The translations under genes and the position numbers were made by a program. The notes below the pieces were generated by a model, which ran no database searches, was not told the DNA's origin, and was given only the letters and a program-made list of their open reading frames with translations. DNA of 64,000 nt from Ensifer adhaerens (GTDB lineage Bacteria > Pseudomonadota > Alphaproteobacteria > Rhizobiales > Rhizobiaceae), in assembly GCF_002940685.1 (NCBI RefSeq), contig NZ_PNFP01000006.1, forward strand, positions 310,001 to 374,000. Reading direction: 5' to 3'. This document shows positions 21,481 through 59,101 of the stretch, piece after piece. How positions within the stretch are numbered: position 1 is the stretch's first letter; the number at the start of each line of letters is the position of its first letter.

Positions 21481-21498
21481 TAGCGGTCCAAGCTTGCG
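21481..21498 (-). promoter_or_regulatory. Flagellar promoter-like element upstream of flhA
   Basis: Reading in the gene direction, CTCGCGCAAG is followed by 9 bases and CTA. It fits all 13 defined positions of YYCRCGCAAG-N9-STA. It lies 68 bp upstream of the flhA ATG in the only sizeable gap of this gene run. Confidence 0.65.
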
Positions 21499-21545
21499 CG
21501 AGGGTTTCACACCGCAGCTTGAGAACAAGCCTTGGCGCTGCCGCA

Positions 21546-21812
21546 TCAGAATCCGGACTGGATGCGCGAGAAGACGATGTCGGTGAAGATGGAAATCTGG
21601 GCGCCGATAAAGGGCGCGGACACGGCGACCGTGATCATGACGGCGAGAATCTTCGGGACGAAGGTCAGCGTCATTTCCTGGACCTGGGTCAGCGCCTGGA
21701 TGAAGGCGATGACGACGCCGACGACCATGGCGGCGAGAACGGCGGGCCCCGAGGCCACGATCACGGTCCAGATCGCGGCCTGCACGATATCGAGGGCATC
21801 CGCCTCATTCAT
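21546..21812 (-). CDS. fliQ: Flagellar export gate protein FliQ
   Basis: 88 residues with two membrane helices, the standard FliQ form; part of the FliPQR gate. The stretch ALTQVQEMTLTFVPKILAV between and into the second helix is family-typical. It follows flgD after 7 bp and is the last gene of the flgE-to-fliQ run. Confidence 0.95.
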   Translation of the reverse strand: MNEADALDIVQAAIWTVIVASGPAVLAAMVVGVVIAFIQALTQVQEMTLTFVPKILAVMITVAVSAPFIGAQISIFTDIVFSRIQSGF

Positions 21813-21819
21813 GGAGTTA

Positions 21820-23014
<1,195 letters not shown>

Positions 23015-23048
23015 TCAGACATCCTTCATGTTTGTCCGGCTCCTCACA

Positions 23049-24104
23049 TTAGAGGAAATTGAGCAAGCTCATCTGCTGTAGTCGCGACGTTAGTGTATAG
23101 GACGTTTCCAACTGCACCTTGAGCGTATTGATCCGGGTCGCGGTTTCCTCGACGTCGATACCCTCGAGGTCAGCCACATGGCTCTTCATGAGCTTGAGCT
23201 GATCGTCGATCGACGTGTTCGCCTTCTTCACCCGCGATTCCCCGATGCCGAGCGAGCTGCGTTCGCCGTTGAGGCCGGCGATGCCCTTCTCGACGTAGTC
23301 CAGCGCCGCGGTGCCGACGGCGGCGCGCGCTGCGGGCGTGATATTCCTGTCCATCAGTTCGGCGGAGATCACGCTGGCAAGCGCGAACATCCGGAAGCCC
23401 TTGGTATTGGCGTTGGTCGAGCTTTCGATCACTTCGCTGGCGCTGATCCGGCTCGTCATGTTCTGGCTGGACGCGTTCGACCAGTTGGTATCCCAGTAAC
23501 CTCCCGGGGTCGTATCCATGAAGCTCGCTTCAAGTCCGGTGATGAACGTCGTCATCTGCGCGGCGGTGATCTGGTCATCGGAGGTGATGCCATTGGCCGA
23601 CTTGAACGATGCAAACGCAGTGTCGAAAGCCGTCTTTGCCGCCGAGGTGGCGGTGTAGTCGGCGAAAGGCTTGGCATCGGTATTGATGCCCGAGAACAGG
23701 AACTCGCCATTGAAGGAGGTGTTGGCGGCCGCGGTGAAGGTCTGCAGCGCGCCCATGATCTCGGTCTTCTGGATCTTCAGCTGGCTTGCGGCATCGTTGC
23801 CCTTGTAGGTGACGAGCGTGTCGCGCACCTTCTCGGCCGCCTTCGCCATCGTCTCGAGCGCGCCCTGCGAGCCGGAGAGGCGCTGGGTCACGACGGAGTT
23901 GGTGCTCTTCATCGAGTTCAGCCGGTCGATCTCGCGCTGAAGGTTGAGCGAGCGCGAGGCCGACGCGCCGAGCGTGAGGCCGACGTCATAGTGCCGGCCG
24001 GTCGTCTGCTCCTGGGTCGCCTTCAGCAAATCCATCTGGTTCTGCGCGATCGTCATGCGCATGGCGGTCTGGATCGCCAGATTAGAAACGTAGGACGTCT
24101 TCAT
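23049..24104 (-). CDS. flgL: Hook-filament junction protein FlgL
   Basis: 351 residues. Flagellin-like D0/D1 helices occur at both ends (MTIAQNQMDLLKATQEQTTG at the start and LETSYTLTSRLQQMSLLNFL at the end). FlgL joins FlgK to the flagellin filament. It starts 2 bp after flgK ends. Confidence 0.94.
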   Translation of the reverse strand: MKTSYVSNLAIQTAMRMTIAQNQMDLLKATQEQTTGRHYDVGLTLGASASRSLNLQREIDRLNSMKSTNSVVTQRLSGSQGALETMAKAAEKVRDTLVTYKGNDAASQLKIQKTEIMGALQTFTAAANTSFNGEFLFSGINTDAKPFADYTATSAAKTAFDTAFASFKSANGITSDDQITAAQMTTFITGLEASFMDTTPGGYWDTNWSNASSQNMTSRISASEVIESSTNANTKGFRMFALASVISAELMDRNITPAARAAVGTAALDYVEKGIAGLNGERSSLGIGESRVKKANTSIDDQLKLMKSHVADLEGIDVEETATRINTLKVQLETSYTLTSRLQQMSLLNFL

Positions 24105-24106
24105 GA

Positions 24107-25570
24107 TTACCTCACAGCTTCCATCAAGGCCGCCATCATGGCGTCCACGGTGCTCACCAGCTTGGCCGATGCTTTGTAGGATTGTTCGAGATCGAGCAGC
24201 AGCGACAGCTCTTCGTCGATGCTGACACCCGTCTGCTTGCTGAGCGCCTCCTGGGTGCGCGACAGCATCGCCTTCTTATTGTCGTCGGCGGTCGATGCGA
24301 TCTTGCGCGTCTGCTCGAGCCAGCCGACCGACCCGGTCGCGAAGTTCAGCAGGCTGCTGGTGCCGTCGAGGCCGGTCGACGGGTCGAACGACATGTTCTC
24401 GCCCATCTTGTTGATGAAGCCATCGATCAGGCCCGTGTAGCCGGGGCTGGGATTTCCAGCGCCGCCGGGGTTCGATACCACGCCGTTAAAGCCGCCATCA
24501 CGCAACAGAAGCGGGTTGGCCTTGGCCAGCGCATTGACCGTGATCTTCGACGCCAGGCCGGGAACGACTGTCCCCGTCGCCGGCATCGCCGCCAAAGCCG
24601 GATCCGTCGTAAACAGGCCGGGCTTGTAGGGGATCGGGGTCGCCGCGCCGGGATCGCCTTCCTTGAAAAGTTCGATCAGGCCGCGCGCGATTTCGTCGAG
24701 CTGCGACTGGAACTTCGGTGCAATGTCGTCGCGCAGCTGCACAAGGCTCGCGAGTTTGCCCTTGGCCGTGGTGTCGGCGCCGCTTCCGGGCGCGATCGGC
24801 ACACCGTCGACGAAAATCTTGTTGCCAACCGTTGCGGCGTCATAGGCCGTGGTCGGAGCGAAAGTGACCTTGCGCGCGCTGTTCTCGAAGAGCACCGTGC
24901 CGTCGGTGGTGAAGATCACCGTGTCGTTGTTGCCGCGGGTCACGGTGGAGATGCCGATGATCTCCGACACCTGCTTCAGGATCTTGTCGCGCTGGTCGAG
25001 CGCATCGCTGGCGTCTTCGCCTTGGGCGGTTAACGCCTTGATCTCGTTGTTCGCCTTCTCGAAGTCCGCGAGCAGGCTGTTCAGCTTGTCGACCTCAAGC
25101 GCGATTTCCTTGTCGGCATCCTCACGCAGATCCTGAACCGACCTGGAGGTTTTGTTGAGCGAGTTGGCGAGATCCTGCGCACTGGTGACGGCGGACGCCG
25201 CGATCGTCTTGTTGCCGGGAGTCGACGCCAGGGTCTGCAGGCTGGTGCGGAACTCCGACAGCAGCTTCGACGGCGCTGTCTCGTAGTTGTTCCCGCCGAG
25301 TGCCGATTTCAGGAGCTCCAGTCCATCGCGAAGCCGGGCCTGGCCCGAGGCTTCGCCGATGCTGGCGATGCTCTGCTTGAGCAGCGCCTCGTTCTGGGCA
25401 CGGTAGATGGATACGACCTGCGCGCCGCTGCCGGTGCTCCCGAGCAGCGCGAGGCGACGCGAATAATCCGCATTGCCCGCATTCGCGATGTTCTTCGACA
25501 CGATCGCGGTCTGCTGCGCCGTGTTGCTGAAGGCCTGCTGTGCGATGGATATTGCGGAGGACAGCGACAT
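24107..25570 (-). CDS. flgK: Hook-associated protein FlgK
   Basis: 487 residues. The N-terminal rod/hook-type motif (AIVSKNIANAGNADYSRR) and the C-terminal helix (DEELSLLLDLEQSYKASAKL) are both intact, giving the normal FlgK layout. It forms the first junction ring on the hook. It lies 23 bp after flgE and 2 bp before flgL. Confidence 0.96.
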   Translation of the reverse strand: MSLSSAISIAQQAFSNTAQQTAIVSKNIANAGNADYSRRLALLGSTGSGAQVVSIYRAQNEALLKQSIASIGEASGQARLRDGLELLKSALGGNNYETAPSKLLSEFRTSLQTLASTPGNKTIAASAVTSAQDLANSLNKTSRSVQDLREDADKEIALEVDKLNSLLADFEKANNEIKALTAQGEDASDALDQRDKILKQVSEIIGISTVTRGNNDTVIFTTDGTVLFENSARKVTFAPTTAYDAATVGNKIFVDGVPIAPGSGADTTAKGKLASLVQLRDDIAPKFQSQLDEIARGLIELFKEGDPGAATPIPYKPGLFTTDPALAAMPATGTVVPGLASKITVNALAKANPLLLRDGGFNGVVSNPGGAGNPSPGYTGLIDGFINKMGENMSFDPSTGLDGTSSLLNFATGSVGWLEQTRKIASTADDNKKAMLSRTQEALSKQTGVSIDEELSLLLDLEQSYKASAKLVSTVDAMMAALMEAVR

Positions 25571-25593
25571 GACGCGGACCGTATCTCTTTCAA

Positions 25594-26805
25594 TTACCGT
25601 TTCAGGTTGACCAGCACGTCAAGCAGGTCCGAGGCGGTCTGGAACACCTTGGAGTTTGCCGTGTAGTTGCGCTGCGCCTCGATCATCGAGGTGAGCTCAT
25701 TGGCAATGTCGACGTTGGAGTTTTCGAGCGCCTTGGACTTGATGTCGCCGAAGGCTCCGGAACCCGCAAAGCCGGTGACGATGACACCGGAATCCGCGCC
25801 CTGGGTATAGACGTTGCCCGATTCCGGCTGCAGCTTGTCCGGGCTCTGCACGTTGGCGAGCGCGATGCGGAACTTCGGCACGAGGTTGTCGCCGTACTTG
25901 GCGTAGACGATGCCTTCCTTGTCGATCTCGAAGCCCGTCATTTTCGAAGGCTTGCTACCGTTGATGGTGCCGCCATCGGTTTCGAATTTTTCGCCCGCCT
26001 GCGTCGTCTTGGAGAAGTCGATGCTCAGCGGGGCGAGCGTGGCGCCGCTACCGGCGAAGGGGCCCAGAGGAAGCGTCGACAGCGGTGCCGGGTTCGCCGG
26101 CGTCAGCTTGCCGGCGGCATCGAACGTTAAGTTCTGCGTTGCCAGGGTGGTGTTGCTTTGACGATCGACGATCGTCAGGGACCACGCGCCGTTACCGGCC
26201 GATTTCGTATAGGTGAAGTCGAGAAGGCGCGAGTTGCCCTGGCTGTCGTAGACGGAAAGCGACGATTTATGCTGGTCGCCGGTCGCGGCATTGCCTGGAA
26301 GGGTTGCGCCCATCGAGCCCTTGGTGGAGCCGGAAGCCACCACGCCGTCGTCCGCGAGCTTGACCGGCACCAGGCCGTCAAAACCGTTGACGACAACGGT
26401 CGGGTCGACGCCGGCCTTGTACTCGTAACCCATCAGCGTGTAGCCGGCGGTGTTGACGAGGTTACCGTTCTTGTCCGGCACGAAGGAGCCGGCGCGCGTC
26501 AGGAAGTTCTGGCCGCCATTGCCCGAGACGATGAAGAAGCCGCCGCCGTTGATCATCAGATCACTTGCCGACGTCGTGTAGCTGGAGCCGCCCTGCTGGG
26601 AGATGCTGTAGCGCACCTGGGTCTCGACGCCGCCGGAATTGTAGTTGCCGCCGCCCGAAGGCAGGATCATCGACGAAAACTCAGTGGAGGCGCGCTTGTA
26701 GCCGGTCGTGTTGGAGTTCGCGATGTTTTCGGCGACGGTGCCCAGACGGTTCGACTGGGCGTTCATACCGGACACACCCGTTCTCATGCTGCCATAGAGA
26801 CTCAT
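25594..26805 (-). CDS. flgE: Flagellar hook protein FlgE
   Basis: 403 residues. The N-terminal motif (SNRLGTVAENIANSNTTGYK) and C-terminal helix (DIANELTSMIEAQRNYTANS) are those of hook proteins, with the D1/D2 beta region between. It is the first gene of the flgE-flgK-flgL-flaF-flbT-flgD-fliQ run. A strong flagellar promoter-like element lies 33-50 bp upstream of the ATG (26838-26855). Confidence 0.96.
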   Translation of the reverse strand: MSLYGSMRTGVSGMNAQSNRLGTVAENIANSNTTGYKRASTEFSSMILPSGGGNYNSGGVETQVRYSISQQGGSSYTTSASDLMINGGGFFIVSGNGGQNFLTRAGSFVPDKNGNLVNTAGYTLMGYEYKAGVDPTVVVNGFDGLVPVKLADDGVVASGSTKGSMGATLPGNAATGDQHKSSLSVYDSQGNSRLLDFTYTKSAGNGAWSLTIVDRQSNTTLATQNLTFDAAGKLTPANPAPLSTLPLGPFAGSGATLAPLSIDFSKTTQAGEKFETDGGTINGSKPSKMTGFEIDKEGIVYAKYGDNLVPKFRIALANVQSPDKLQPESGNVYTQGADSGVIVTGFAGSGAFGDIKSKALENSNVDIANELTSMIEAQRNYTANSKVFQTASDLLDVLVNLKR

Positions 26806-26837
26806 ATCGGATCCTCATTTCCTTGTTACGGCGACAC

Positions 26838-26855
26838 TAGGAAGCGGGCCTTGCG
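26838..26855 (-). promoter_or_regulatory. Flagellar promoter-like element upstream of flgE
   Basis: In the gene direction TTCACGCAAG is followed by 9 bases and CTA. It matches YYCRCGCAAG-N9-STA at all defined positions. CTA lies 33 bp before the flgE ATG, a spacing that would suit a -10-like position. Confidence 0.7.
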
Positions 26856-26896
26856 TGAACCTGTCTTGGCTCAGCGCCCGCCCATTGGCGTGGCGC

Positions 26897-27568
26897 TCAG
26901 TTCCAGTCGATGCAGTAGCCAAGGAAACGCTTCGAATCGATCGGGTCGAAGCCGAGCTTCTTGCGCAGTTTCTTGCGCAGCTTGCTGATGTGGCTCTCGA
27001 CGACGTTTTCCTCGACGTCCTCGTCGAAGATCCCGTAGATCGCATTGAAGATCTGCGACTTGGATACGCGACGGCCGCGGTTTGCGACCAAGTATTCGAG
27101 AATACGGCGCTCGCGGCGCGGAAGCGCAAAGACTTCGCCGTTGATTTCCGGGTCACGGCCGTCGGCAAAGACGCGGATCGGACCGATGTCGGTAAAGTTG
27201 GCGATCGCCTTCAGACGTCGGCGGATCGCAGCGACGCGGGCGAGAATTTCGCGGGGGTGGATAGGCTTGCGCACGACGTCGTCGACGCCGCAATCAAAGA
27301 GTGCAAGCGTATTTTCAAGGGACGGCGTGTCGCTCATCGCGATGACAGGCGCCATCGAGCGATCGCGGATGGCCCGCGGCAGCGTGAAGGTGGTGTCGCC
27401 CTGCCCGATCAGGAAGGCCTCTACCGCATCGATATCCGAATCAGCAGCCGCATTCACCCACTCCCCGAACTCGCGGGGATCGAACCCCGTCGAGGGAATA
27501 CCTTCGCGCCCGAAGAGGGACGCGTACCCGTCCTTCACCAGCTCTCTTTCATCAACCACTACGATCAT
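26897..27568 (-). CDS. rem: Motility activator Rem, orphan OmpR-type regulator
   Basis: 223 residues. The C-terminal half (about 125-223) is a winged-helix OmpR/PhoB DNA-binding domain ([20 protein letters not shown] and [20 protein letters not shown]). The N-terminal half has receiver-like length, but the usual phospho-Asp strand is replaced by [12 protein letters not shown], so phosphorylation is unlikely. In S. meliloti Rem acts below VisNR and activates swimming genes. It lies 91 bp upstream of flgE and has a 269-bp AT-rich upstream region with a weaker flagellar element. Confidence 0.93.
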
Positions 27569-27754
27569 TCGCCCGCCTCCGAATCAGTATGGCTCCGCAC
27601 TGATTGAGAGGTACGAATCGAGGGATTCATGAACAACTAGAGGAAGTTACTGGGTGGAATTAATAATTGATTAACCATGTTTCGCCGATTTGATCTATAT
27701 CTAGTAGCACCCATCCCAAATCGACACTAAAATAATGTGGAAAAGTTAACGGAC

Positions 27755-27772
27755 TACGACAATTCGCTTGCG
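27755..27772 (-). promoter_or_regulatory. Weaker flagellar promoter-like element upstream of rem
   Basis: In the gene direction the hexamer CGCAAG is followed by 9 bases and GTA, but the 5' part (TGAC) departs from the YYCR consensus. It lies 187 bp upstream of the rem ATG in AT-rich DNA. A TGGTTAA box (27672-27678) lies nearer the gene. Autoregulation or VisNR control is possible. Confidence 0.45.
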
Positions 27773-27837
27773 GTCACATTGTCCGCGCATTGTCGCCACA
27801 ATGCGGCAAACTCGACGCTAATACACTCATTGGTTGC

Positions 27838-28410
27838 TTATTGGCAAAACTGCGTGGCGTTCGGCGTCCACTTGCCGTAGCCGGTCGCGACAAGATTCGC
27901 GATCACCCGGCAGACGTATTTTTTCTGCGCCGGGTCGTTGTTCGGGCCTGCGTGATAGCGCGCAACGGCCATCGTCCAGGTCTCGTGCCTGGCATGGAGA
28001 TTGGCCAGGAAACGCGCGGCATACTCGACGTTCTTGCGCGGGTCAAGCATCTCCTGCGGCGAGCTGAAATGCTCGCCATGGAAGTAATAGTTGATCTGCA
28101 TGCAGCCGAGATCGATGAGCTTGGCACCCTGTGCACGGGCGTTGCCGAACTGGGTCAGAACATCCTGCTCGCTGCTACCGAAATAGGCCTTTCCCTCGAT
28201 GTTCATGGCGTAGGGTTGAAGCGATCCCTTGCGGCCGGTTTCGGTCAGCCCGACCGAATAGAGGATCCCGGCCGGGATGTCGTACTTTGCCGCCGCGCTG
28301 ATGATCTCGCGTTCGCAGACGCCCGCGTCGGCACTGGCAAGGGCGCTACATGTAGACGTGGCCAGTACGAGAGCGCTCAGTGCCGGCAGCCGCATCGTCC
28401 GTCCCGCCAT
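27838..28410 (-). CDS. Secreted lytic transglycosylase (SltF-like)
   Basis: 190 residues with an N-terminal signal peptide ending near ALASADAG and an SLT-type domain. The catalytic Glu is in SVGLTETGRKG, followed by GCMQINYYFHGEHF and VARYHAGPNN, all family-typical. It would cut peptidoglycan for rod assembly and so complement the single-domain FlgJ. The ATG at 28410 is chosen; a TTG at 28416 and an ATG at 28395 are alternatives. Its 5' end overlaps fliK by 65 bp in another frame, which suggests coupling. Confidence 0.8.
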   Translation of the reverse strand: MAGRTMRLPALSALVLATSTCSALASADAGVCEREIISAAAKYDIPAGILYSVGLTETGRKGSLQPYAMNIEGKAYFGSSEQDVLTQFGNARAQGAKLIDLGCMQINYYFHGEHFSSPQEMLDPRKNVEYAARFLANLHARHETWTMAVARYHAGPNNDPAQKKYVCRVIANLVATGYGKWTPNATQFCQ

Positions 28411-29767: not shown

Positions 29768-31065
29768 TCGTTTTCTCCCTTCAGGAGCGCGTCGATCTCT
29801 TCGATCTTCGATCGTCCTTTGGCCACGAAGCCATCGTGCTGCGGATCCCCCGCCTCATCAGTGCCGGAAGCCGCCACAGCCGCCTGTTCAGCCGCCGTGG
29901 TCTGCCCGCTTCCGAAGGGGCTCATGCCGCTGCCGGTTCCCTCGCTCGCGGCCGACGCACCCGCTTCGACCGGTCTGTCGGGTTTAGACGCAAACGCTTG
30001 CGTGAGGCTTTCATCGGCCGGTGGTCTGACGACGGCATCCGCCACAGCCTTTGCAGCGTCGCGCAAGGCACGGTCGCGCGGCGAAAGCTCCGCATCCGAT
30101 ATCGCCGCCAGGCTTGCCGTCGCGGCGAAGACGTCATTGGAGGGCACCGCAGCCAGGCCGGCATAGAAGCCGGCAAGCAGTTTCGGCTGTGTGGCGCCGT
30201 CCGCACCCAGCGCCTCGGCACGTTCCGAGGCAAGCTTCGCAAGCTCCTGCTTGCCGGCAATCGCCGCGCGGCGGGCGACGCGAAGAAAGACCTCGCGCTG
30301 GCGCGGCGCATCCATGAAACTGAGAATCTCGGAGATCCGCTCCTGCGCCTCACCATCGAAATGAGCAACCGCGAGCTCGACGAAGACGTCCGCGAACTGG
30401 CTGGCATAGGGGGATGTCAGGTAGCGGCGGGCATAGGCCAGCGCATAGCGGAATCCCTTGTCCGCATCGCCCGCCTGAACCGCCAGGAAAACCGAGCGAC
30501 GCAGCGCCGCCTCTTCGATGATCGTGCCCGGGGCCGCAAGGCGGGCCCAGTCATAATACTTCATCGCACCCACCGGATCCTGCTGCGACGTGGCGTTGCC
30601 GAGGATGAGATAGAGATAGGGACCGATGCGGGCGCTGCGGTATTCGGGCGCGGCCTTGGACAGGTTCTCGACGATCAGGCCGCCCTTGCCGCCCAGATAT
30701 TGCCGGAGCGCGTCGGTGACGCGGGAATCGAAGTTGCCGGCGACGTCATGATCCGAAAGGTACTTCAGCGTCTCCGGATTGCCGCCGCTCATGGCATAGA
30801 CCAACGCCGCATCGACGTTGCGCGGGTCGCGGAAGACGGTCGCGTCGGCCGCGCGCAGGCGCTTGTCGATCGCCCCCAGCATGAAGCGTTGCATTTCGAT
30901 TGCGGAATGGTCGCCAAGAACGACCGAGTCCTGCACATATTGCAGGGACCGGATCATCTTGAAGGGCGCGAGCTCCTCGACATCGTCCGCCCTGGCGCCC
31001 CCTGTCGCCAACGGGGTCGCCAGCACGCAGCAGGCCATCAGAGCGGATCGCAGGCGTCTCAGCAT
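29764..31065 (-). CDS. motC: Periplasmic motor protein MotC
   Basis: 433 residues with a signal peptide (LRSALMACCVLATPLATGGA, cleavage near ARADD). The mature part is mainly helical with repeat-like pairs (YAMSGGNPETLKYLSDHD, AKLASERAEALGADG). MotC is a rhizobial motility protein that acts in the periplasm with MotB. It is placed 5 bp after motB and coupled to fliK. Its folding partner MotE is encoded at 41389. Confidence 0.92.
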   Translation of the reverse strand: MLRRLRSALMACCVLATPLATGGARADDVEELAPFKMIRSLQYVQDSVVLGDHSAIEMQRFMLGAIDKRLRAADATVFRDPRNVDAALVYAMSGGNPETLKYLSDHDVAGNFDSRVTDALRQYLGGKGGLIVENLSKAAPEYRSARIGPYLYLILGNATSQQDPVGAMKYYDWARLAAPGTIIEEAALRRSVFLAVQAGDADKGFRYALAYARRYLTSPYASQFADVFVELAVAHFDGEAQERISEILSFMDAPRQREVFLRVARRAAIAGKQELAKLASERAEALGADGATQPKLLAGFYAGLAAVPSNDVFAATASLAAISDAELSPRDRALRDAAKAVADAVVRPPADESLTQAFASKPDRPVEAGASAASEGTGSGMSPFGSGQTTAAEQAAVAASGTDEAGDPQHDGFVAKGRSKIEEIDALLKGENE

Positions 31066-31070
31066 GGCGC

Positions 31071-32965: not shown

Positions 32966-33225
32966 GGCCGGCCTCCTGCATCGGAGCTGCGGCAATGCGG
33001 CAATCCCCATCTGCTTGACAGGCGGCGCTTTCCGGCGCGGACTTCCATTGCTCCTGGCACTGCTGACATGTCTCCCTCGGGCCCGACCGTCGGATACGGC
33101 GAACCCAGCATTCTTGACGTACATCAGCGTGATCCGGGGTCGGTTTTCCCGGAGCGATCCGATGCAGGCGGCGGCGCAAAGGTCATTTTGGCCGGCAGTC
33201 ATCCGACAGGACTGCGAGGGAAGGC

Positions 33226-33243
33226 TATTCGGTCAAACTTGTG
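33226..33243 (-). promoter_or_regulatory. Flagellar promoter-like element upstream of the fliH-like/motB operon
   Basis: In the gene direction TTCGCACAAG is followed by 9 bases and ATA. It matches YYCRCGCAAG at nine of ten positions, and the 3' triplet is ATA instead of STA. It lies 260 bp upstream of the fliH-like ATG. Confidence 0.5.
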
Positions 33244-33257
33244 CGAAAATGAATGTG

Positions 33258-33290
33258 TTGGACCGCGCCAGGGCAATTAGCGCGGTCCAA
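33258..33290. repeat. Perfect 11-bp inverted repeat, possible terminator of the third flagellin gene
   Basis: TTGGACCGCGC (33258-33268) and GCGCGGTCCAA (33280-33290) form an 11-bp stem with an 11-nt loop. It lies about 130 bp beyond the flagellin stop on the minus strand. No long U-run follows, so termination is uncertain. Confidence 0.45.
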
Positions 33291-33419
33291 CCGTTTCCAC
33301 CGGGTGCCGTGACCGACGACGTGGCAGAACTTGAAGATGCCGTCATCCGCATGTGGGGCGATGGGCTCAATTTTGGCGAGTCTGCGCGGCCATGCCCGGC
33401 CGCCGCCCGCGGCCGCGCC

Positions 33420-45513: not shown

Positions 45514-45542
45514 CAAAAGCTCCATGCTTGGTGATGCGAACC

Positions 45543-45560
45543 TAGGCCGGTAATCTTGCG
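45543..45560 (-). promoter_or_regulatory. Flagellar promoter-like element upstream of flgB
   Basis: In the gene direction CCCACGCAAG is followed by 9 bases and CTA, a full match to YYCRCGCAAG-N9-STA. It lies 30 bp before the flgB ATG. The longer flgB reading frame would run through it, which also argues for the shorter start. Confidence 0.7.
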
Positions 45561-45688
45561 TGGGACTTTCGTCGGAAAGCGGTGCCGGGGAGAACGCCGT
45601 CCTGGCCGGCATAGGTCGCCCAGAAGGCGGAAAGCCGCGTCATCCGGCAAGATGGCGCGGCGGTCGGCGACAAGAACGGCAGGCGACG

Positions 45689-47637: not shown

Positions 47638-47655
47638 GCCGATATCCGTCAGAGA

Positions 47656-48381: not shown

Positions 48382-48383
48382 GT

Positions 48384-49163: not shown

Positions 49164-49188
49164 GATCGCTCCGCCCCTGCCGGAATGA

Positions 49189-49266
49189 GACAGGCGGCCC
49201 CTTAGGCCTGCCCTGACAAATCCTGACCGGACAGCCTTGCGCGAACCTGTTCCGACAGGCGGCCCC
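49189..49266. repeat. 13-bp direct repeat in the DUF1217/motA divergent region
   Basis: GACAGGCGGCCCC occurs at 49189-49201 and again at 49254-49266, 65 bp apart. The copies lie on either side of the minus-strand flagellar element at 49224-49241. They may be protein-binding sites or the remains of a small duplication. Confidence 0.5.
49224..49241 (-). promoter_or_regulatory. Flagellar promoter-like element upstream of DUF1217-flgF-fliI
   Basis: In the gene direction TTCGCGCAAG is followed by 9 bases and TCA. The 5' decamer is a full match to YYCRCGCAAG, but the 3' triplet is not STA. It lies 61 bp upstream of the GTG. Confidence 0.55.
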
Positions 49267-49289
49267 ATCGCCAGTGCCGGCCAGCCTCA

Positions 49290-49307
49290 CGCAAGGATGA
49301 AACCGTA
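49290..49307 (+). promoter_or_regulatory. Flagellar promoter-like element upstream of motA
   Basis: CTCACGCAAG (from 49286) is followed by 9 bases and GTA, a full match to YYCRCGCAAG-N9-STA. It lies 39 bp before the motA ATG. With the minus-strand copy at 49224-49241 it makes this a two-way flagellar promoter region. Confidence 0.7.
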
Positions 49308-49346
49308 TCCCGTTAGCGGAAAATAAGATCGCGACAGGTATCGAAT

Positions 49347-50225: not shown

Positions 50226-50229
50226 TTCC

Positions 50230-51171: not shown

Positions 51172-51231
51172 ATCGGCCTGCCGCGCACGCGCAGCATGCC
51201 TGAGGCAAGCTTCAACTGGAATAGTTCTCAC

Positions 51232-51840
51232 ATGGCACCCAAGAAAGCACCCATCAACGAACAGGCCGAAGCCGCTGTCGGAGACATGGAACTCGACCAG
51301 GCGATCAACGACCTGCGCGGTGTCCTGAAACAGGATTCCGACACGCCTGCAGCGTTCGGCTCGGAATTCGGCGGCGAAACGCTTGGCACGAGCGATTTCG
51401 GCAGCGACTTTGGCGCACCGGCAGCGGGCGGTCTCGACGCATTCGGCGGCGATTTTGGCTCCAGCGACTTTGGCGCCGATCTCGGCGGCCCGGCCGCGAC
51501 GAGCGATTTCGGCGGCACGGATTTTGCCGCGACGTCCTTCGACAGCGCTGATGTGGCCGTCGATACCCCGCCCGGCAGCGGCATGAACGCCAATCTCGAC
51601 CTGATCATGGACATTCCGATCGACGTCCAGATCGTGCTCGGCTCGAGCCGGATGCAGGTTTCAGGCCTCATGAACCTCAGCGAAGGCGCAACGATCGCGC
51701 TGGATCGCCGCATCGGCGAGCCGGTGGAGATCATGGTCAACGGTCGGGTGATCGGCCGTGGCGAAATTACCGTTCTCGAAGGCGACGATACCCGCTTCGG
51801 CGTCAAACTCATCGAGATCAAGGGCAATAAGAAGTCGTAG
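51232..51840 (+). CDS. fliN: Flagellar switch protein FliN with FG-rich linker
   Basis: 202 residues. The C-terminal SpoA domain (about 125-202) is canonical ([20 protein letters not shown], then [20 protein letters not shown]). An N-terminal acidic helix ([16 protein letters not shown]) is followed by a linker of about 70 residues with eight FG dipeptides in Ser/Asp-rich context. Typical FliN has about 137 residues. The ATG at 51232 is preferred. The one at 51196 lies in a 17-bp sequence also found in the noncoding region before the GT41 gene. Confidence 0.9.
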
Positions 51841-51869
51841 GGCCCAATGATTGGGCGAAGGATGAATCC

Positions 51870-52901
51870 ATGATGGATTTCGAAAGTTTCGAGGCTCAGG
51901 CGCTATCAAGGCCGCTCAGCCAGACGGACAAGGCGGCGGCCGTTCTGCTTGCCATGGGCAAGGGCGTCGCCAGCAAACTGCTGAAATTCTTCACCCAGAG
52001 CGAACTGCAGTCGATCATCGCGTCGGCGCAGTCGCTGCGCGCCATTCCACCGCATGAACTCGAAGCGCTCGTCAACGAGTTCGAAGACCTCTTCACAGAG
52101 GGTGCCGGCCTCATGGACAACGCCAAGGCGATCGAGAGCATTCTCGAGGAAGGCCTGACGCCGGACGAAGTCGACGGCCTGCTCGGCCGTCGCGCCACGT
52201 TCCAGTCCTATGAAGCCAACATCTGGGACCGCCTGCAGGAATGCGACCCGGTGGCCGTTTCCGTACAGCTTGCCAAGGAACATCCGCAGACGATCGCCTA
52301 CGTTCTTTCGATGATGCCGTCGAGCTTCGGCGCCAAGGTGCTGCTGCAGCTGTCCGAAGAACAGCGACCGGACATCCTGAAGCGCGCCGTCAACATGAAG
52401 GACGTCAACCCGAAGGCCGCGGCGATCATCGAGAACCGCGTGATGGAAATGATCGGCGAGATGGAAGCGGAACGCAACTCGGCGGGCCCGGCCAAGATCG
52501 CCGAGGTGATGAACGAACTCGACAAGCCGCAGGTCGATACGCTGCTCGCCTCGCTCGAATCGCTCAGCACCGCTTCGGCCAACAAGGTTCGCCCGAAGAT
52601 CTTCCTCTTCGACGACGTGCTCTACATGCCGCAGCGCAGCCGCGTTCAGCTTTTCAACGACGTGTCGACCGACATCATCACGATGGCGCTGCGCGGCTCG
52701 ACGTCGGAACTGCGCGAATCGGTGCTCGCCTCGATCGGCGCGCGCCAGCGCCGCATGATCGAGTCCGATCTCGCCATGGGCGATGCCGGCATCAATCCGC
52801 GCGACATCGCCATTGCGCGGCGCTCGATCACGCAGGAAGCCATTCGCCTGGCCGCGAACGGACAGCTCGAACTCAAGGAAAAGGACGTCCAGGCGGCCTG
52901 A
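51870..52901 (+). CDS. fliG: Flagellar switch protein FliG
   Basis: 343 residues with the three-domain FliG layout. The EHPQT motif of the middle domain is present (LAKEHPQTIAYVLSMMP). The C-terminal torque helix keeps charged residues (LRESVLASIGARQRRMIESD). FliG links FliF to the C-ring and contacts MotA. A hairpin (52968-52995) lies between it and flhB. Confidence 0.96.
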   Translation: MMDFESFEAQALSRPLSQTDKAAAVLLAMGKGVASKLLKFFTQSELQSIIASAQSLRAIPPHELEALVNEFEDLFTEGAGLMDNAKAIESILEEGLTPDEVDGLLGRRATFQSYEANIWDRLQECDPVAVSVQLAKEHPQTIAYVLSMMPSSFGAKVLLQLSEEQRPDILKRAVNMKDVNPKAAAIIENRVMEMIGEMEAERNSAGPAKIAEVMNELDKPQVDTLLASLESLSTASANKVRPKIFLFDDVLYMPQRSRVQLFNDVSTDIITMALRGSTSELRESVLASIGARQRRMIESDLAMGDAGINPRDIAIARRSITQEAIRLAANGQLELKEKDVQAA

Positions 52902-52967
52902 GGTCCGCCTTCGTCCGATGAGCGGCACAAAGCGGCCGGTCGACCGCTCCGCAAAGGCTAATTTCTG

Positions 52968-52995
52968 TTGAGCCCCGGTGAATGCCGGGGCTCAA
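52968..52995 (+). terminator. Hairpin between fliG and flhB, probable terminator
   Basis: TTGAGCCCCGG (52968-52978), a TGAATG loop and CCGGGGCTCAA (52985-52995) form a perfect 11-bp stem. CTCTTG follows without a long U-run. It may end the motA-fliG transcript, since flhB has its own promoter-like element downstream at 53034. Confidence 0.6.
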
Positions 52996-53033
52996 CTCTT
53001 GCCTGGCTCCCGCACTGGGTCCACTACAGGAAG

Positions 53034-53051
53034 CGCAAGCTTGAACGCATG
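53034..53051 (+). promoter_or_regulatory. Weaker flagellar promoter-like element upstream of flhB
   Basis: CGCAAG at 53034-53039 is followed by 9 bases and ATG. The 5' bases (GAAG) depart from YYCR. It lies between the hairpin and the flhB ATG at 53101, where a promoter would be expected. Confidence 0.35.
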
Positions 53052-53100
53052 TCCGCCGGGACGCGCGTCGCCGTAGAGGAACCGGGAGCCATCCTGTCTC

Positions 53101-54177
53101 ATGTCGGACGATCAGGATAAAGACAGCAAAACAGAGGCCCCGTCAGAGAAGAAGATCTCCGACGCAGCGGATAAGGGCAACGTGCCCTTCTCGCGCGAGG
53201 CCACGATGTTCGCATCGACGCTCGCGATCTACATTTTCTTCGTTTTCTTCCTGACCGATGGCGTCGCCACCCTCACCGAGGCGCTCAAGGACATCTTCGA
53301 GCAACCGGAGGCCTGGCGGCTGGAAAACGCCACCGACGTGGTGGCGCTGATCACCCATCTCGTCTGGAAATCGACGGCCCTCGTCGTCCCGGTCTTCGTC
53401 CTGCTCATCGTCTTCGGCGTCGGCGCCTCAATCTTCCAGAACCTGCCTCGGCCGGTTCTTGACCGTATTGCGCCCAAGTTCAACCGGGTTTCGCCGATGG
53501 CGGGCCTCAAGCGGATCTTCGGCATCCAGGGCCTGGTCGAATTCGGCAAGTCGCTGTTCAAGATCATCATCGTGTCGGTCGTCGTCGTTCTGGTGCTCTG
53601 GAACGACTACTTCGCCACGCTCGACCTGATGTTTTCCGACCCGGTCACGATGTTTGCGACGATGGCGAACGACCTCAACGAGATCATGATCGTCATTCTG
53701 CTTGCGACCGCAGTGCTGGCGATCGCCGACCTCTTCTGGTCGCGGCATCATTGGTACACCGAACTGATGATGACCAAGCAGGAAGTGAAGGAGGAAATGA
53801 AACAGGCGCAGGGCGATCCGATCGTCAAGTCGCGCCTGCGTTCGATGCAGCGCGACCGGGCGCGCAAGCGCATGATTTCGTCGGTGCCGCGCGCCACGCT
53901 CGTGATCGCCAACCCGACCCACTATGCCGTCGCGCTGCGTTATGTCCGAGAGGAGAGCGACGCGCCCATCGTCGTGGCGATGGGGCAGGACCTGGTTGCC
54001 CTCAAGATCCGTGAAATCGCAGAGAAAAACGGCGTTCCCGTCTTCGAGGACCCGCCGCTTGCACGCTCCATGTTTGCACAAGTCTCGGTGGATAGTGTGA
54101 TTCCACCGGTGTTTTACAAGGCTGTTGCCGAACTCATTCACCGGGTGCATGCGTCGCAACCAAAACGGATGACATAA
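53101..54177 (+). CDS. flhB: Flagellar export specificity protein FlhB
   Basis: 358 residues: charged N-terminus, four membrane segments, and a cytoplasmic domain with the self-cleaving NPTH motif at residues 271-274 ([15 protein letters not shown]). FlhB switches export specificity together with FliK. It ends 5 bp before the next gene. Confidence 0.97.
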
Positions 54178-54182
54178 CTCCG

Positions 54183-54623
54183 ATGAAAAAGTGCGAATTC
54201 TCCGAAAAGCGAGAACAGATCGTAGCTGAAGCAATTCGCCCCGTGGCGACCGAACTGCGTCTGATCGACGCCGCCGATTTCATCGCGCTGTTGCGGTTCG
54301 AGTCCTATGCCAGCCTTGCTGACCTCGTCGAATCGGCGGCCGAGCTCTATTTTCTACCCGGCACGGTCAATTTCGGCCTCGGCGGCAACTACAATCTGGA
54401 TTGGGACTGCGAGCCGGAAATCGTGCTCGACCTCGAACTGAAACCACGCGGTGTGACCATCTATGTCCGCCTGTCGCTTGGCAACGAGACGGCCGGGATC
54501 GAGATCAGCCATATCAATTTCCAGACCCCCTCGTCCGACCCGGACGAAAACACGGCCTTCCTGGCGCGGAGCCTGGCCGAGGCGAAATTCATCAAGTCCT
54601 ATGAGTTGCCGCTGGCAAGCTGA
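54183..54623 (+). CDS. Conserved flagellar-locus protein of unknown function
   Basis: 146 residues, no signal peptide or membrane segment, acidic. A helical N-terminal part (LRLIDAADFIALLRFESYAS) is followed by a beta-rich part (GVTIYVRLSLGNETAGIEIS). It is tightly linked to flhB and occupies the same place as an unnamed gene in S. meliloti. I do not recognise a family; a role linked to export or to VisNR control is only suggested by position. Confidence 0.75.
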   Translation: MKKCEFSEKREQIVAEAIRPVATELRLIDAADFIALLRFESYASLADLVESAAELYFLPGTVNFGLGGNYNLDWDCEPEIVLDLELKPRGVTIYVRLSLGNETAGIEISHINFQTPSSDPDENTAFLARSLAEAKFIKSYELPLAS

Positions 54624-54640
54624 AGCGCCGTTCGGATCAG

Positions 54641-54704
54641 GCCTCAAGCGACCGCGTGACGGCAGCCGCCGGGTTTTATCCCGTCGGAACCGTCGCCTTG
54701 AGGC
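54641..54704. terminator. Structured region between convergent genes, possible two-way terminator
   Basis: Outer arms GCCTCAAG (54641-54648) and CTTGAGGC (54697-54704) enclose a smaller hairpin CGGG-TTTTAT-CCCG (54670-54683) and GACGG/CCGTC arms. It lies between the flhB-linked gene and visR, which point toward each other. Confidence 0.5.
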
Positions 54705-54727
54705 AGGTGCGATCGGTCTGTTGACAG

Positions 54728-55474
54728 CTAGCTGATGTAGCCGAGGCGGATCGCCTTGGCGATCGCCTGGATGCGGTTGACCGAATCGAGCTTCGTCGTC
54801 GCAGCACCCAGATAGGCGTTGACCGTATGGACCGAAAGCCCCATGCGCTCGGCGATCTCTTCGCTGATGTGACCGTCGCCGGCCATCTGCAGACAGGCGA
54901 TCTCGCGGTCGCTCAAGGTTTCCGCCGGCGCGACGCGCTTCTCGTCGGCCGCCAGAAGGTCCGTCATGATCATGCAACTGCGGCCGTGCAGATCGACGAC
55001 CTGCTCGGTGGTGGCATCGACATAGCTGCCGGCGAAGACGACATAGCCGTTGCCCTGGGCGCCGAGCCTGACGGGAAAGGCGATGCCGGAATAGGACAGC
55101 TTGCGGCCCTTCAGGCGATGGGCAAACGGTGCAAGGTCGGAGAGTTCGGCCGCCTGGTGCTCGCCGGCGCCGTTCCAAAGGATCGGCAGCAATGACTGGT
55201 CGAGATGGGCAACCAGCTCTTCGCCATAGGCCGTGACGAGATCATGGGCGTTCGCCTCGGCCGCGACACCCCAGTTGTCGAGGACACAGGTGAGCTTTCG
55301 TGCACCGCCTGTCCCCTTGCCATTGAGGCGCAGGACCGCGAAGTTCTTGGCGTTGATCTGGCGCTGCATGGCCTGCAGGCGCGTGACCAATGTGGCTGCG
55401 CGCGCGGCGCGATTGCCGTTCCTTGCGAGCTTCTGCTCGTCCTCGATCCGCCCGCCGCCAAGAAAATGCGTCAT
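54728..55474 (-). CDS. visR: LuxR-type motility master regulator VisR
   Basis: 248 residues. The N-terminal part (about 20-165) resembles an autoinducer-binding-type domain and the C-terminal part is a LuxR helix-turn-helix (LSDREIACLQMAGDGHISEE, then MGLSVHTVNAYLGAATTKL). In S. meliloti VisN and VisR act together at the top of the flagellar hierarchy and activate rem. It lies 12 bp after visN. Confidence 0.93.
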   Translation of the reverse strand: MTHFLGGGRIEDEQKLARNGNRAARAATLVTRLQAMQRQINAKNFAVLRLNGKGTGGARKLTCVLDNWGVAAEANAHDLVTAYGEELVAHLDQSLLPILWNGAGEHQAAELSDLAPFAHRLKGRKLSYSGIAFPVRLGAQGNGYVVFAGSYVDATTEQVVDLHGRSCMIMTDLLAADEKRVAPAETLSDREIACLQMAGDGHISEEIAERMGLSVHTVNAYLGAATTKLDSVNRIQAIAKAIRLGYIS

Positions 55475-55486
55475 CGCGTCCGTCCC

Positions 55487-56227
55487 TCACACAAGATTAT
55501 TGCGCACCGCGTAGGCAATCGCTTCCGACCGCGTCCTGGTCGCGGTCTTGCGCATGACGCTGGTGATGTAGTTGTTGATGGTATTTCGCGAGATGCCGAG
55601 GATCACCGCGATCTCTTCGCTCGTCTTGCCTTCGGCAATCCAGAACAGGCACTCCAGCTCGCGCTCCGTAAGCTCGAAGTCCCGGTCATGGCGGACCTCG
55701 GCGCGCGTGGTGAAGCTCGCCAGGTACCCTGCCAGGAGCGTGACGTCGCGCAGATTCTCCTGCGACAGGATCACGTCATCCGGGACCAGCAGCATCAGGG
55801 AAAAACGCAGCCGCCCGACGTTGAAGGTGATTGCGCAATATTCGCGGCTGATGCCGCGCGGCAGTTCGATATCATCAGGCAGCGCATGAAAACACGGCTG
55901 CAGCACGGCGAGGCACTTTTCCAGCTCGGTGGTCTTGGCATGAATGGCGGTGATCACGCCGGAAAGGCGCCGGACGACGTCGAAGGGCCAATCCGAGCAG
56001 ACGACATGGTCGAGCCCGCTGTCCTGCGAGAGATCGTAGCGGGCCAGGAGATAATGGCTCGCGCCGACATATTCCGTCAGCGCCGAAAGGCCGCTACCGA
56101 GACCACCCCGCCCGGCGACTTCGCCCAGTCGTCGCAAGAGCTGATCGCGAGAAAACGCGCCGCCGCGTGCGCGTGTCGGTGCCGTCGGCAAAGGCCAGAC
56201 AGCAATGTCTGCTTGCGAAATGTCCAT
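55487..56227 (-). CDS. visN: LuxR-type motility master regulator VisN
   Basis: 246 residues with the same two-domain layout as VisR; the C-terminal helix-turn-helix is LTERELECLFWIAEGKTSEE with LGISRNTINNYITSVMRKTA. It is the partner of VisR. The ATG at 56227 has no strong ribosome binding site. A long AT-rich noncoding region lies upstream. Confidence 0.93.
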   Translation of the reverse strand: MDISQADIAVWPLPTAPTRARGGAFSRDQLLRRLGEVAGRGGLGSGLSALTEYVGASHYLLARYDLSQDSGLDHVVCSDWPFDVVRRLSGVITAIHAKTTELEKCLAVLQPCFHALPDDIELPRGISREYCAITFNVGRLRFSLMLLVPDDVILSQENLRDVTLLAGYLASFTTRAEVRHDRDFELTERELECLFWIAEGKTSEEIAVILGISRNTINNYITSVMRKTATRTRSEAIAYAVRNNLV

Positions 56228-57069
56228 GAGTTCAGCCCCTGTGCCGGATCCACATCCCGGAACTGCATGTGCGCTGCCGCCGCCAACAGCCGGCCGAAGC
56301 CGATTATTACCACCAGTCGCAGATCAGGACGCGAATCAACTGCTAAAAATGTACATCGGCACGAGAAAAAAAACACCGCCCTCTTCTGGCTATTTACTTC
56401 GCGTCGCAGGCATGTCGCGATTCGTGACCGAAACACCCTGCAGGAGCCCCTCCTCCACCGCGCAAATCATAGCAAACTCGCAACACGCTGAAAGACAAAG
56501 GCTTTTCTCGCGAAAATCCACCGTTTCCACGACCGAACCGGGATTGGCAGCCGGGTCGCGGCCGGAAAATGGGGCGATTTCATCCCAAAAAAGGGCACTT
56601 TTTCACGCGCATGGAATTTTGAGTTCGCGGGATATTATACTTTGTTTTCAGAAGCTGTTGCTCAAATGCACCAGCTGATTTTCAGACAATGCTCATTTTA
56701 TCGATATATAAATTGTGAAACTCATAGAATAAATCCGGCTATTAACATTAATATAGTTACACTGAACTCTGTATTGCCGGAATCCGGCATAGTAGATGGC
56801 AGCGTGGAATGCACGTCATGCGGGCGCGCCGAATCTATAAATTAAGATATCGTTAAAGTATTACCATCCTGGCAGCCGGCGGGACTCAGCCGGCCTCACT
56901 TCGAAACTTGAAGCAATTTCGAAGCCAGATCAAAACCGGCAGCCAGACTCCCGCAATATTTGCGCCGAACATCAAAGCGCGCTGCCAGCGCGAACAGGCG
57001 TGCCACGACAAAGAAAAATCCCGCCACAAGGGCGGGATCTGCAAGAAATCGCGAAGCGTTTCCTGTCTG
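56228..57069. other. Long AT-rich intergenic region between visN and fliF
   Basis: No convincing gene is seen in these 842 bp. The stretch 56630-56860 is much richer in A/T than the rest of the window. It probably contains the visNR promoter and binding sites for upstream regulators. The fliF terminator lies at its right end (57013-57038). Small open frames at 56642-56845 and 56205-56678 lack family features. Confidence 0.65.
57013..57038 (-). terminator. Intrinsic terminator of fliF
   Basis: ATCCCGCC (57018-57025), an ACAAG loop and GGCGGGAT (57031-57038) form an 8-bp stem. On the minus strand a U-run follows. It lies 32 bp after the fliF stop. Confidence 0.88.
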
Positions 57070-58743
57070 TCAGGCCGCTTTGTCGAGAGCCCACTTGCGC
57101 AGGATCTTGGCCGCGCGCTCTTCGCTGATCTCGACCATGCGCGCCAGGCGCCGTTCCGGTCCTTCCTTGACGCGTCGGTTGAAGCCGCCGTCGTCGCCCA
57201 TGTTGAGCAGGTCGTCGGTGCTGTCGAACCCGAAGTCCGAGCCGAAGCCGTCCATGAGGGCTCCGCCGGCGCCAGCGTTCGCCGGTGAGAAGTCCGGCAG
57301 TTCGAGGCCCGCGGCTTCGCCCTGGATCTGGCCGGCACTGCCGCCGAGACCGAGCTGGCGGGCGAGCGGCCGCATGCCCATCCAGACGACCAGGAAGGCG
57401 ACCACGATGAAGGCAAGGGCATTGATGATGCCGCCGAGGTTGCGGGTCAGCGTCTCCATCACGCCGGGACCGGCGACAGCTTGGTCGAGCAACTGCGTCT
57501 CGACGAAGTCCATGGCGGTCAGGGTCACGATATCGCCGCGGCTGGTGTCGAGGCCGGCGGCCGAAGCGACGATCTTCTGCATGTCGGCGAGATAGGCATC
57601 GATCTTCGCCTGGTCGGCCGGTTCGCCGACCATCGCGGCCAGGCGGCCGCGGTTGACGACGACGGCGACGGAGAGGCGCTCGACCGTGTAGCTGTTCTTG
57701 ACGGTGGCGATCGTCTTGCTGTTGATTTCGTAGTTGGTCTGCTCTTCTTTTTTCTCGGCTTCGTCGCTCGACCGCGGGCCGGCGCCGCCGGTCGGAGCGG
57801 CCTGCGGAATGTTCTGCTGCACGGTCGCGGCATTGTCCGGCTGCTGCTGGCTGGATTTCTGCTCTTCCTTGGTCACGCGCGTCGAGCGCTCGACGCGCGA
57901 TTCCGGATCGAAGACCGTTTCCTGGATCTGCTGCGTATCGGTGTTGAGGCGCGCCGTGACGCTGGAGCGGAAGTTGTCCATGCCCAGGAACGGTGCCAGA
58001 GCATTGTCGATCTTCTTCTCAAGCTCGGTCTGGACGTTCTGAACGACGCCGAGCGACTGGTTGAGGGCGCTGTTGGCCGGATCGTCGCCAGAGGCGAGCA
58101 ACTGCCCGGTCGAATCGAGCACGGTCACGTCGTCGACGTCGAGCCCCGGTACGGAAGAGGCGACGAGATGACGGATCGAGGCGGCGGCGCTGCGGCCGAC
58201 CGTGGCGCTGGCGCGGATCATGACCGAGGCGGTCGGATTCTGGTCAGCCTTGCGGAAGCTGCCGCGCTCCGGCATCACGATGTGGACGCGGGCGGCGGCA
58301 ATGCCGGAAATCTGCTGGATGGTGCGGCCGATTTCGCCTTCAAGCGCGCGCACGCGGGTCACTTCCTGCATGAAGGAGGTGAGGCCCAGCGAGCCGACAT
58401 TGTCGAAGAGTTCGTAGCCGGCGTTGGCGCTGCTCGGCAGGCCGCGCTCGGCGAGCAGCAGGCGCGCCTTGCTGGTCATGCCAACGGGAACCTGGAGGCT
58501 GGCGCCGTCAGCCCCGACATTGAAGTCGATGTTGGCCTCGGCCAGCGCGATGCTGATCTGAGTGACATCGCTGCGTTCGAGCCCGACATAGAGCGTCTCG
58601 AACGAGGGTCTGTTGACGTAAATTCCGGCCCCGAGAACCATGCCGACCGCAACAATGCCGGCCGCGGCCAGCGCAATCAGCTTGCCTTGCCCGAGACTGC
58701 TCAGGTTCTTCGTGAACGTCGAGAGTTGATCCAACAGACTCAT
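57070..58743 (-). CDS. fliF: MS-ring protein FliF
   Basis: 557 residues. Membrane helices are at about 21-44 and 445-468. The periplasmic ring-building region lies between (GYELFDNVGSLGLTSFMQEV, then RVHIVMPERGSFRKADQNPT). The C-terminal tail for FliG binding carries DGFGSDFGFDSTDDLLNMG, an FG-rich stretch shared with FliN, then RRLARMVEISEERAAKILRK. It has its own promoter-like element and terminator. Confidence 0.96.
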   Translation of the reverse strand: MSLLDQLSTFTKNLSSLGQGKLIALAAAGIVAVGMVLGAGIYVNRPSFETLYVGLERSDVTQISIALAEANIDFNVGADGASLQVPVGMTSKARLLLAERGLPSSANAGYELFDNVGSLGLTSFMQEVTRVRALEGEIGRTIQQISGIAAARVHIVMPERGSFRKADQNPTASVMIRASATVGRSAAASIRHLVASSVPGLDVDDVTVLDSTGQLLASGDDPANSALNQSLGVVQNVQTELEKKIDNALAPFLGMDNFRSSVTARLNTDTQQIQETVFDPESRVERSTRVTKEEQKSSQQQPDNAATVQQNIPQAAPTGGAGPRSSDEAEKKEEQTNYEINSKTIATVKNSYTVERLSVAVVVNRGRLAAMVGEPADQAKIDAYLADMQKIVASAAGLDTSRGDIVTLTAMDFVETQLLDQAVAGPGVMETLTRNLGGIINALAFIVVAFLVVWMGMRPLARQLGLGGSAGQIQGEAAGLELPDFSPANAGAGGALMDGFGSDFGFDSTDDLLNMGDDGGFNRRVKEGPERRLARMVEISEERAAKILRKWALDKAA

Positions 58744-59101
58744 TCTGTTTCCGCACCCAGTATCGCAAGGTCTTCGAGCCGGTCATCGGCCGAGCGCCCT
58801 GCGCAGTTCCAACATTCGGGTTTTCTGGGTATCGACATGCCGAGTATCGACTTCCAATGCGCGCGAATCCACCAGTCCCGATCCGGACCGTAGGAAACGA
58901 AACTTGCGCGAACTTGGCCTGATGAGCCCTGCCGGAGCGGCTGAGGCTTCATGACAGGACTTATCCACGGGCACGGAAAGGGCTGCTCGGCGCGGAAAAA
59001 TCGGCGTGCAAGACCGTCGCCACATCAGGGCACGACACGGTAAACCGCTGATTTTACACGGGTATTTTCAGATTCTCGTCCGGGAATGCACTTTGCGAGC
59101 G
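58744..59101. other. Intergenic region between cheT and fliF
   Basis: No gene is seen in these 358 bp. The region carries a full-match flagellar promoter-like element for fliF (58891-58908). No clear terminator of the che run was found here, so che transcripts may read into fliF. Confidence 0.6.
58891..58908 (-). promoter_or_regulatory. Flagellar promoter-like element upstream of fliF
   Basis: In the gene direction TTCGCGCAAG is followed by 9 bases and CTA, a full match to YYCRCGCAAG-N9-STA. It lies 148 bp upstream of the fliF ATG. Confidence 0.68.

Follow-up and report, generated by a model that had tools for sequence, protein, structure and literature searches.

Operons of a flagellar gene cluster in Ensifer adhaerens, lying within a 64,000-nt stretch of contig NZ_PNFP01000006.1 (positions 310,001–374,000; the window), share an upstream element that is very probably the operator–promoter unit of the regulator Rem: an OmpR/PhoB-type box that would stand in for the −35 element at class II flagellar promoters. 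Its two half-sites form a direct repeat set at a fixed distance from a −10 element, the element is conserved before the same operons in related genomes, and its enrichment follows the presence of Rem. Rem, reported since 2006 to activate the class II genes of rhizobial flagella, is encoded in the cluster itself (26897..27568, − strand; Pfam Trans_reg_C, 1.8e-16).

A repeated element at flagellar operons

A first-pass annotation of the window had proposed an 18-bp element with the pattern YYCRCGCAAG-N9-STA; the element is real, but the pattern spans 22 bases. The five full matches that it named are all present. They are listed here with the extent of box and −10 element and with the score under a position weight matrix (PWM) that was built from 103 sites of these same five promoters: flhA (21481–21502; 21477..21509, − strand; PWM 30.6), flgE (26838–26859; 26834..26866, − strand; 34.3), flgB (45543–45564; 45539..45571, − strand; 27.9), motA (49286–49307; 49279..49311, + strand; 25.6) and fliF (58891–58912; 58887..58919, − strand; 28.4). 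A sixth exact match, absent from that annotation, falls at 29985–30006 (box at 29981..30013, − strand; 18.2), inside the 3′ part of motC and about 220 bp before fliK.

Against these six matches, 300 simulations under a first-order Markov model gave a mean of 0.03 and a maximum of 1, in agreement with the earlier claim that the repetition is unlikely to be random. Across the whole genome (7,518,942 bases on 81 contigs), the pattern occurs six times, each time in the flagellar cluster, and the control, the same pattern read backwards, three times. The count within the cluster is circular, because the pattern was derived from five of these same sites; non-circular support comes from the lack of matches outside the cluster and from conservation in other genomes. 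Allowing up to two mismatches gave no excess in the window (16 found, 18.4 expected), and near matches were therefore accepted only where they are conserved. A refined pattern of 26 bases, MANNYYCRCRCAAGN10TA, has ten matches in the genome, seven of them in the cluster, and none in the control.

Conservation in relatives

We compared two sets of loci. The first consists of 80 loci around rem, the best 80 of 573 confirmed candidates and hence close relatives, from Ensifer, Sinorhizobium, Rhizobium, Shinella, Agrobacterium and other genera. In these named loci, CRCGCAAG-N9-NTA precedes flhA in 75 of 79 cases and flgE in 78 of 79, one locus being dropped for each gene for want of a match to it, and rem in none of 80. 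Of the four flhA misses, three read CGCACAAG.

The second set comprises 25 flagellar clusters from genomes of the same family; a gene start was counted only if it could be placed to within 60 residues, a filter that weighed most on fliK, the motB-operon gene and duf1217, with 2, 4 and 15 starts remaining. Here a relaxed form of the pattern precedes flhA (19/21), flgE (24/24), flgB (18/21), motA (21/21) and fliF (21/22), and the three flgB misses read CTGACGCAAG. It is rare before flgF (1/22) and duf1217 (1/15), and absent before rem (0/25), motC (0/24), fliI (0/21), fliM (0/15), fliG (0/21) and flhB (0/21). It is also absent before both members of a pair of LuxR-type regulators (54728..56227, − strand; Pfam GerE), which from their position we take to be VisR (0/20) and VisN (0/21). 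The PWM, scored on the five promoters from which it was built, exceeds or equals its cut-off of 20 at flgE in 23 of 24 clusters, motA in 21 of 21, flgB in 21 of 21, fliF in 21 of 22 and flhA in 19 of 21, and nowhere in 1.33 Mb of reversed sequence. The box thus stands before class II operons and is missing at the starts of rem, fliI, fliM, fliG, flhB, motC and the two LuxR-type genes. The element is real and conserved, and very probably an operator–promoter unit.

Two near matches described earlier proved to be genuine. The site of the fliH-like/motB/motC/fliK/(rem) operon (33226; box and −10 at 33222..33254, − strand) matches the refined pattern and has the second-best PWM score in the window, 31.4; the box precedes this gene in four clusters, and most cluster sites not assigned to a gene probably share its position, the gene start there not being placed. 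The site of the DUF1217–flgF–fliI operon, divergent from motA (49224; box at 49220..49252, − strand; PWM 17.4), has a conserved core in 21 of 21 clusters, where it is the best site on its side (21/21; PWM at least 15 in 17/21). Its −10 begins with CA in place of TA, as it does in 9 of the 21 clusters, and one of the 21 sites is 575 bp away from the box of motA. The box inside motC is lineage-specific: its PWM score reaches at least 15 in 4 of 24 clusters, and the full pattern is found in 10 of the 14 named loci with a placeable fliK start.

The statement that nearly all flagellar operons carry the element consequently holds for flhA, flgE, flgB, motA, fliF, the motB operon and DUF1217, but not for rem and flhB. 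The weaker sites proposed before rem (27755) and flhB (53034) were rejected as chance, being without conservation in relatives; the former recurs in none of the 25 clusters and, bar one stray match in the loosest form, in none of the 80 named loci, and the latter in none of 21 clusters. Before the GT41 gene (37222), the box is present in one of only four alignable related copies. That the flagellin genes lack the element was borne out within the family by the relaxed pattern (0/23 for each of three queries), although one PWM match precedes fla2 in one genome; outside the family, flagellins of three outgroup genomes carry the box.

Architecture of the element

The element is a direct repeat with an 11-bp period, MMAS-N7-CAAG, followed after exactly 10 bases by a TANNNT −10 element. 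The upstream half-site is visible as M–A at eight and seven bases before CRCAAG in all eight elements (the six exact matches, DUF1217 and the motB operon), a feature that the first-pass annotation did not mention, and the A at −7 is present in 99% of the five-promoter set. Self-similarity peaks at a shift of 11 bp, where 0.56 of positions match GCAAG, compared with 0.41 at 10 bp and 0.01–0.41, mostly about 0.25, at the other shifts from 6 to 25. The flgB box of several relatives has CGCAAG as its first half-site too (CGCAAG-N5-CGCAAG).

The C at −2 and 0, CAAG and TA are fixed by the search pattern and are conserved by construction in pattern-based site sets and in the PWM, so the TA requirement was dropped for the measurement of spacing. 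This box-only search found the box in 250 of 267 upstream regions of the five genes. Of the 226 distinct sites, 225 have TA at exactly 10 bases, and its frequency at each of the other offsets between 0 and 19 does not exceed 4%; a further T stands five bases after the T of the −10 in 60% of sites, giving TANNNT. Taking the −10 T as −12, the half-sites occupy −39 to −34 and −28 to −23, and the columns at the canonical −35 place, 16–18 bp from the −10, hold the box itself (MA..YYC). Transcription is predicted to start about 10–11 bases after TA, close to the 5–10 bp after STA suggested earlier.

This arrangement matches that of the Escherichia coli phoA pho box, as verified in the sequence upstream of phoA in a named record: an 11-bp direct repeat with 10 bases between the second half-site and the −10. 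Pho box promoters need no −35 element. The two systems differ in sequence, CTGTCAT in the pho box versus CAAG-type half-sites here, in regulon and in activation, PhoB needing phosphorylation and Rem being reported active without it (PMC9812332). The CtrA box of Caulobacter, TTAA-N7-TTAA, is likewise an 11-bp direct repeat used by an OmpR-family activator at early flagellar operons; its sequence and protein are different, and the CtrA of S. meliloti is reported to act on flgBCDH and fliEFIL indirectly (PMC4433202). The flagellar element has the features of an OmpR/PhoB-type box, namely a direct repeat of about 10–11 bp, a fixed distance to the −10 and a protein of the cognate family encoded in the cluster.

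Association with Rem

The first-pass annotation had left the element as a class II promoter or a site for Rem or VisNR. The first two are well supported and are one thing; the third is disfavoured, because direct repeats are the usage of the OmpR/PhoB family and because the box occurs in Rem-bearing families without recognisable VisN or VisR.

Rem has the OmpR/PhoB DNA-binding domain, and its receiver domain falls under the Pfam cut-off, in line with a report that Rem lacks key aspartates and is active unphosphorylated (PMC9812332). The protein encoded in the window and the Rem of one Ensifer adhaerens strain have identical sequences. Among 121 genomes of the family, scored for Rem with E values up to 1e-45, the 102 with Rem hold 518 matches to the refined pattern versus 76 in the control, and the 19 without a Rem match hold 15 versus 12. 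Outside the family, 56 genomes with FliF and no Rem hold 20 matches versus 43 in the control, and 12 genomes with both hold 29 versus 10. Enrichment is thus found only in Rem-bearing genomes.

In 15 Rem-bearing outgroup genomes we found no convincing VisN or VisR, the matches being either C-terminal only or, in G017, over most of the length at 24% identity. Flagellar genes were present in the stretches read from 13 Rem-bearing outgroup genomes (eleven genomes plus G001 and G068, the last two read in part), and 10 of these have a box scoring at least 15 within 200 bp of a flagellar start; the control gave none in 428 kb. These boxes lie most often at motA and flgB, 46–94 bp upstream. In three genomes a box also lies 132–144 bp upstream of a flagellin gene (L249, L256 and L261), unlike the flagellins of the Rhizobiaceae. 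Within the family, two small Rem-bearing genomes with no VisN or VisR matches (G189 and G191) have a pattern match just downstream of rem. Boxes therefore occur where no VisN or VisR is recognisable and, with the Rem-linked enrichment, this indicates that the element goes with Rem and not with VisNR.

Two further observations can be added. FliF scores of the order-level genomes split into 183–234 bits in Rem-bearing genomes (G035 has a second FliF at 304) and 268–323 bits in flagellated genomes without Rem, which suggests two flagellar lineages. A divergent motA/flgF-like pair with a box on each side (L289; G117:C2:124716-124847) lies about 55 kb from rem on the same contig.

Boxes are found at the motA–fliM operon and at an operon that we take, from gene order, to be that of orf38. 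Rem is reported to activate fliM and orf38 (PMC8429497) and to act on class II genes directly (PMC9812332). As far as they can be matched, the genes reported to depend on Rem, FtcR, LafR or ActR (the fliM operon, the orf38 operon and fliF) have the box. A published consensus for the box was not found in a literature search that did not cover Rotter 2006, Leonard 2007 or the LafR paper of 2017, all possible sources; in the portions of the rhizobial flagellar literature examined, CGCAAG appears in primers and in a proposed RosR-box for flbT, at position 74 (PMC4696191).

Several observations weigh against the assignment to Rem. Not every Rem-bearing genome has the box at its flagellar operons: no box lies within 200 bp of any flagellar start read in G100, G001 and G068 (the latter two in part), making 3 of the 13 outgroups, and 4 of the 102 Rem-bearing family genomes (G120, G128, G135 and G193) have no match to the refined pattern. 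Outgroup boxes are patchy, each genome having them at some operons only and G030 and G022 at one each. Because Rem and one flagellar lineage occur together, the box may track the gene set and not the protein; moreover, related genomes are non-independent samples. From the literature, the motif derived by chromatin immunoprecipitation sequencing (ChIP-seq) for FtcR, the Brucella orthologue of Rem, is TGTGGGCA, which does not match the box (PMC9456535); in our clusters TGTGGGCA occurs in 2 of 21 motA upstream regions and in none of the flhA, flgE, flgB and fliF sets. In a study of CtrA, its depletion lowered flagellar genes but left rem, which CtrA did not bind, unchanged, and the authors suggest that a different regulator acts in between (PMC4433202). 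An S. meliloti start-site study lists in its text three de novo motifs, none of which is the box (PMC3616915).

Proposed mechanism and alternatives

We propose that a Rem dimer would bind head to tail on two half-sites one helical turn (11 bp) apart, the distal one degenerate (..MMAS, at about −39 to −34) and the proximal one strict (CRCAAG, at about −28 to −23) and separated by 10 bases from the first T of the TANNNT −10 element. Like PhoB at the pho box, bound Rem would then replace the −35 and keep the housekeeping sigma factor on the promoter. VisNR would make Rem, whereupon the class II operons would fire together. The activity of Rem, reported not to need phosphorylation, would depend on how much of it is present and on inhibitors, of which MirA is one reported example (PMC12632262). 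As the box-headed motB operon runs toward rem, positive feedback by read-through is possible.

A rival explanation, that another regulator of the same gene set, such as a second OmpR-type protein, binds the element and Rem acts indirectly, would accommodate both the differing FtcR motif (PMC9456535) and the further regulator proposed by the CtrA study (PMC4433202). We consider it unlikely, given that Rem is reported to activate class II genes directly (PMC9812332), that FtcR is reported to bind the fliF upstream region (cited in PMC9456535) and that Rem is the only OmpR-type regulator among the annotated proteins of the window, which are a subset of its genes. That VisNR itself occupies the element and activates the class II genes without an intermediate might be thought of because the two LuxR-type genes lie in the same cluster and virtually all motility genes require VisNR (PMC4018554). 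It is very unlikely: LuxR-type proteins normally use inverted repeats, not an 11-bp direct repeat, Rem-bearing outgroups have boxes despite their C-terminal or 24%-identity VisN/VisR matches, and rem, a reported VisNR target (PMC8429497), has no box in either set with the CRC forms of the pattern.

The fixed spacing to a conserved TA would also be expected if the element were not an activator site but the −35 and −10 of an alternative sigma factor. The 10 bases between CRCAAG and TA are, however, too short for such a pair (16–18 in general), the second copy 11 bp upstream is left unexplained and the pattern tracks Rem across families, so we give this reading hardly any weight. Chance similarity, or shared ancestry of the flanking DNA, could draw on the lack of excess in the window at up to two mismatches; the recurrence at five different promoters in many genera, with zero control matches in 1.33 Mb, already refutes it and leaves its probability negligible. 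The assignment to Rem is the one that we retain.

A probable promoter within flhB and candidate targets elsewhere

A further box, with a TAGTGT −10, lies in the last codons of flhB (54066..54098, + strand; PWM 24.3; at least 20 in 16 of 21 clusters), 106 bp before an open reading frame (ORF) for a 146-aa protein (54183..54623, + strand). The protein has a tblastn match in 21 of 25 clusters and no Pfam or NCBIfam family; across the ORFs tested, Pfam gave no family for ten and NCBIfam none for seven, bar one P0003 match far under the cut-off. Codons were compared wherever the peptide fitted the search expression, which gave 19 genomes (our own and those of 18 of the 25 clusters), with twelve flagellar genes of our own genome as baseline. 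The glutamine codon of the box is CAA in 19 of 19 (12% of glutamine codons at baseline) and its aspartate codon GAT in 19 of 19 (30% at baseline); AGT, which forms the TAGTGT −10, encodes 13 of 15 serines (3% at baseline), the other four genomes having asparagine. Where the peptide reads MYK or MFK, as it does in seven genomes, the remainder of the box has degenerated. The retention of rare synonymous codons, in relatives that are not independent, points to selection on the DNA; the 3′ end of flhB thus probably conceals a promoter, new here.

Outside the cluster, loci were hand-picked among the matches listed and 18 stretches compared. In our own genome, a box scoring 30.1 (L219; C7:196890) precedes a 214-aa ORF that follows a gene we take to be pcm, and G156 has a counterpart (L283); the two ORFs share an 'R.SLS..ALL.LS' stretch. 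This small protein is a possible Rem target. A family of small membrane proteins ('AFP.EAIR.LH.TAD') has the box in three genomes (L288, L294 and L299), and its member in our own genome (L232; C7:204979) has a one-mismatch, low-scoring site (11.1). Two other matches in our genome (L220 and L221; scores 16.4 and 19.9) have no supporting relatives among the compared loci and are likely chance.

Beyond the edge of the window (contig C55:377816, window position 67816), a site one base off the refined pattern precedes what we presume, from gene identity and order, to be the che operon, a probable chemotaxis operon; it scores only 4.9 and was missed by the PWM scan at 6. The spacer GGAATTAACCATA follows CAAG at probable chemotaxis promoters (our own and that of G195, L300), and it recurs in G203 at the promoter of DUF1217. 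This spacer is similar to 'Motif 2' of S. meliloti, TTTGTTAACCAT (PMC3616915).

Implications

The 26-base pattern, with 10 matches in this 7.5 Mb genome and 7 of them in the cluster, allows the Rem regulon to be read off the sequence, places predicted transcription starts to a precision of a few bases and offers testable new members. It also calls the published FtcR motif into question. The parallel with the pho box suggests that a response regulator reportedly without its key aspartates has kept the promoter geometry of PhoB. A broader view, which we hold tentatively and rate at somewhat less than an even chance, is that one box serves as the operator of the Rem/FtcR/LafR/ActR family across the Rhizobiales and predates the VisNR step, with a regulon extending to the promoter embedded in flhB and its 146-aa protein, the small protein after pcm, the family of small membrane proteins and, in lineages without VisNR, the flagellins. 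If this is true, the flagellins of the Rhizobiaceae would have left direct control by Rem.

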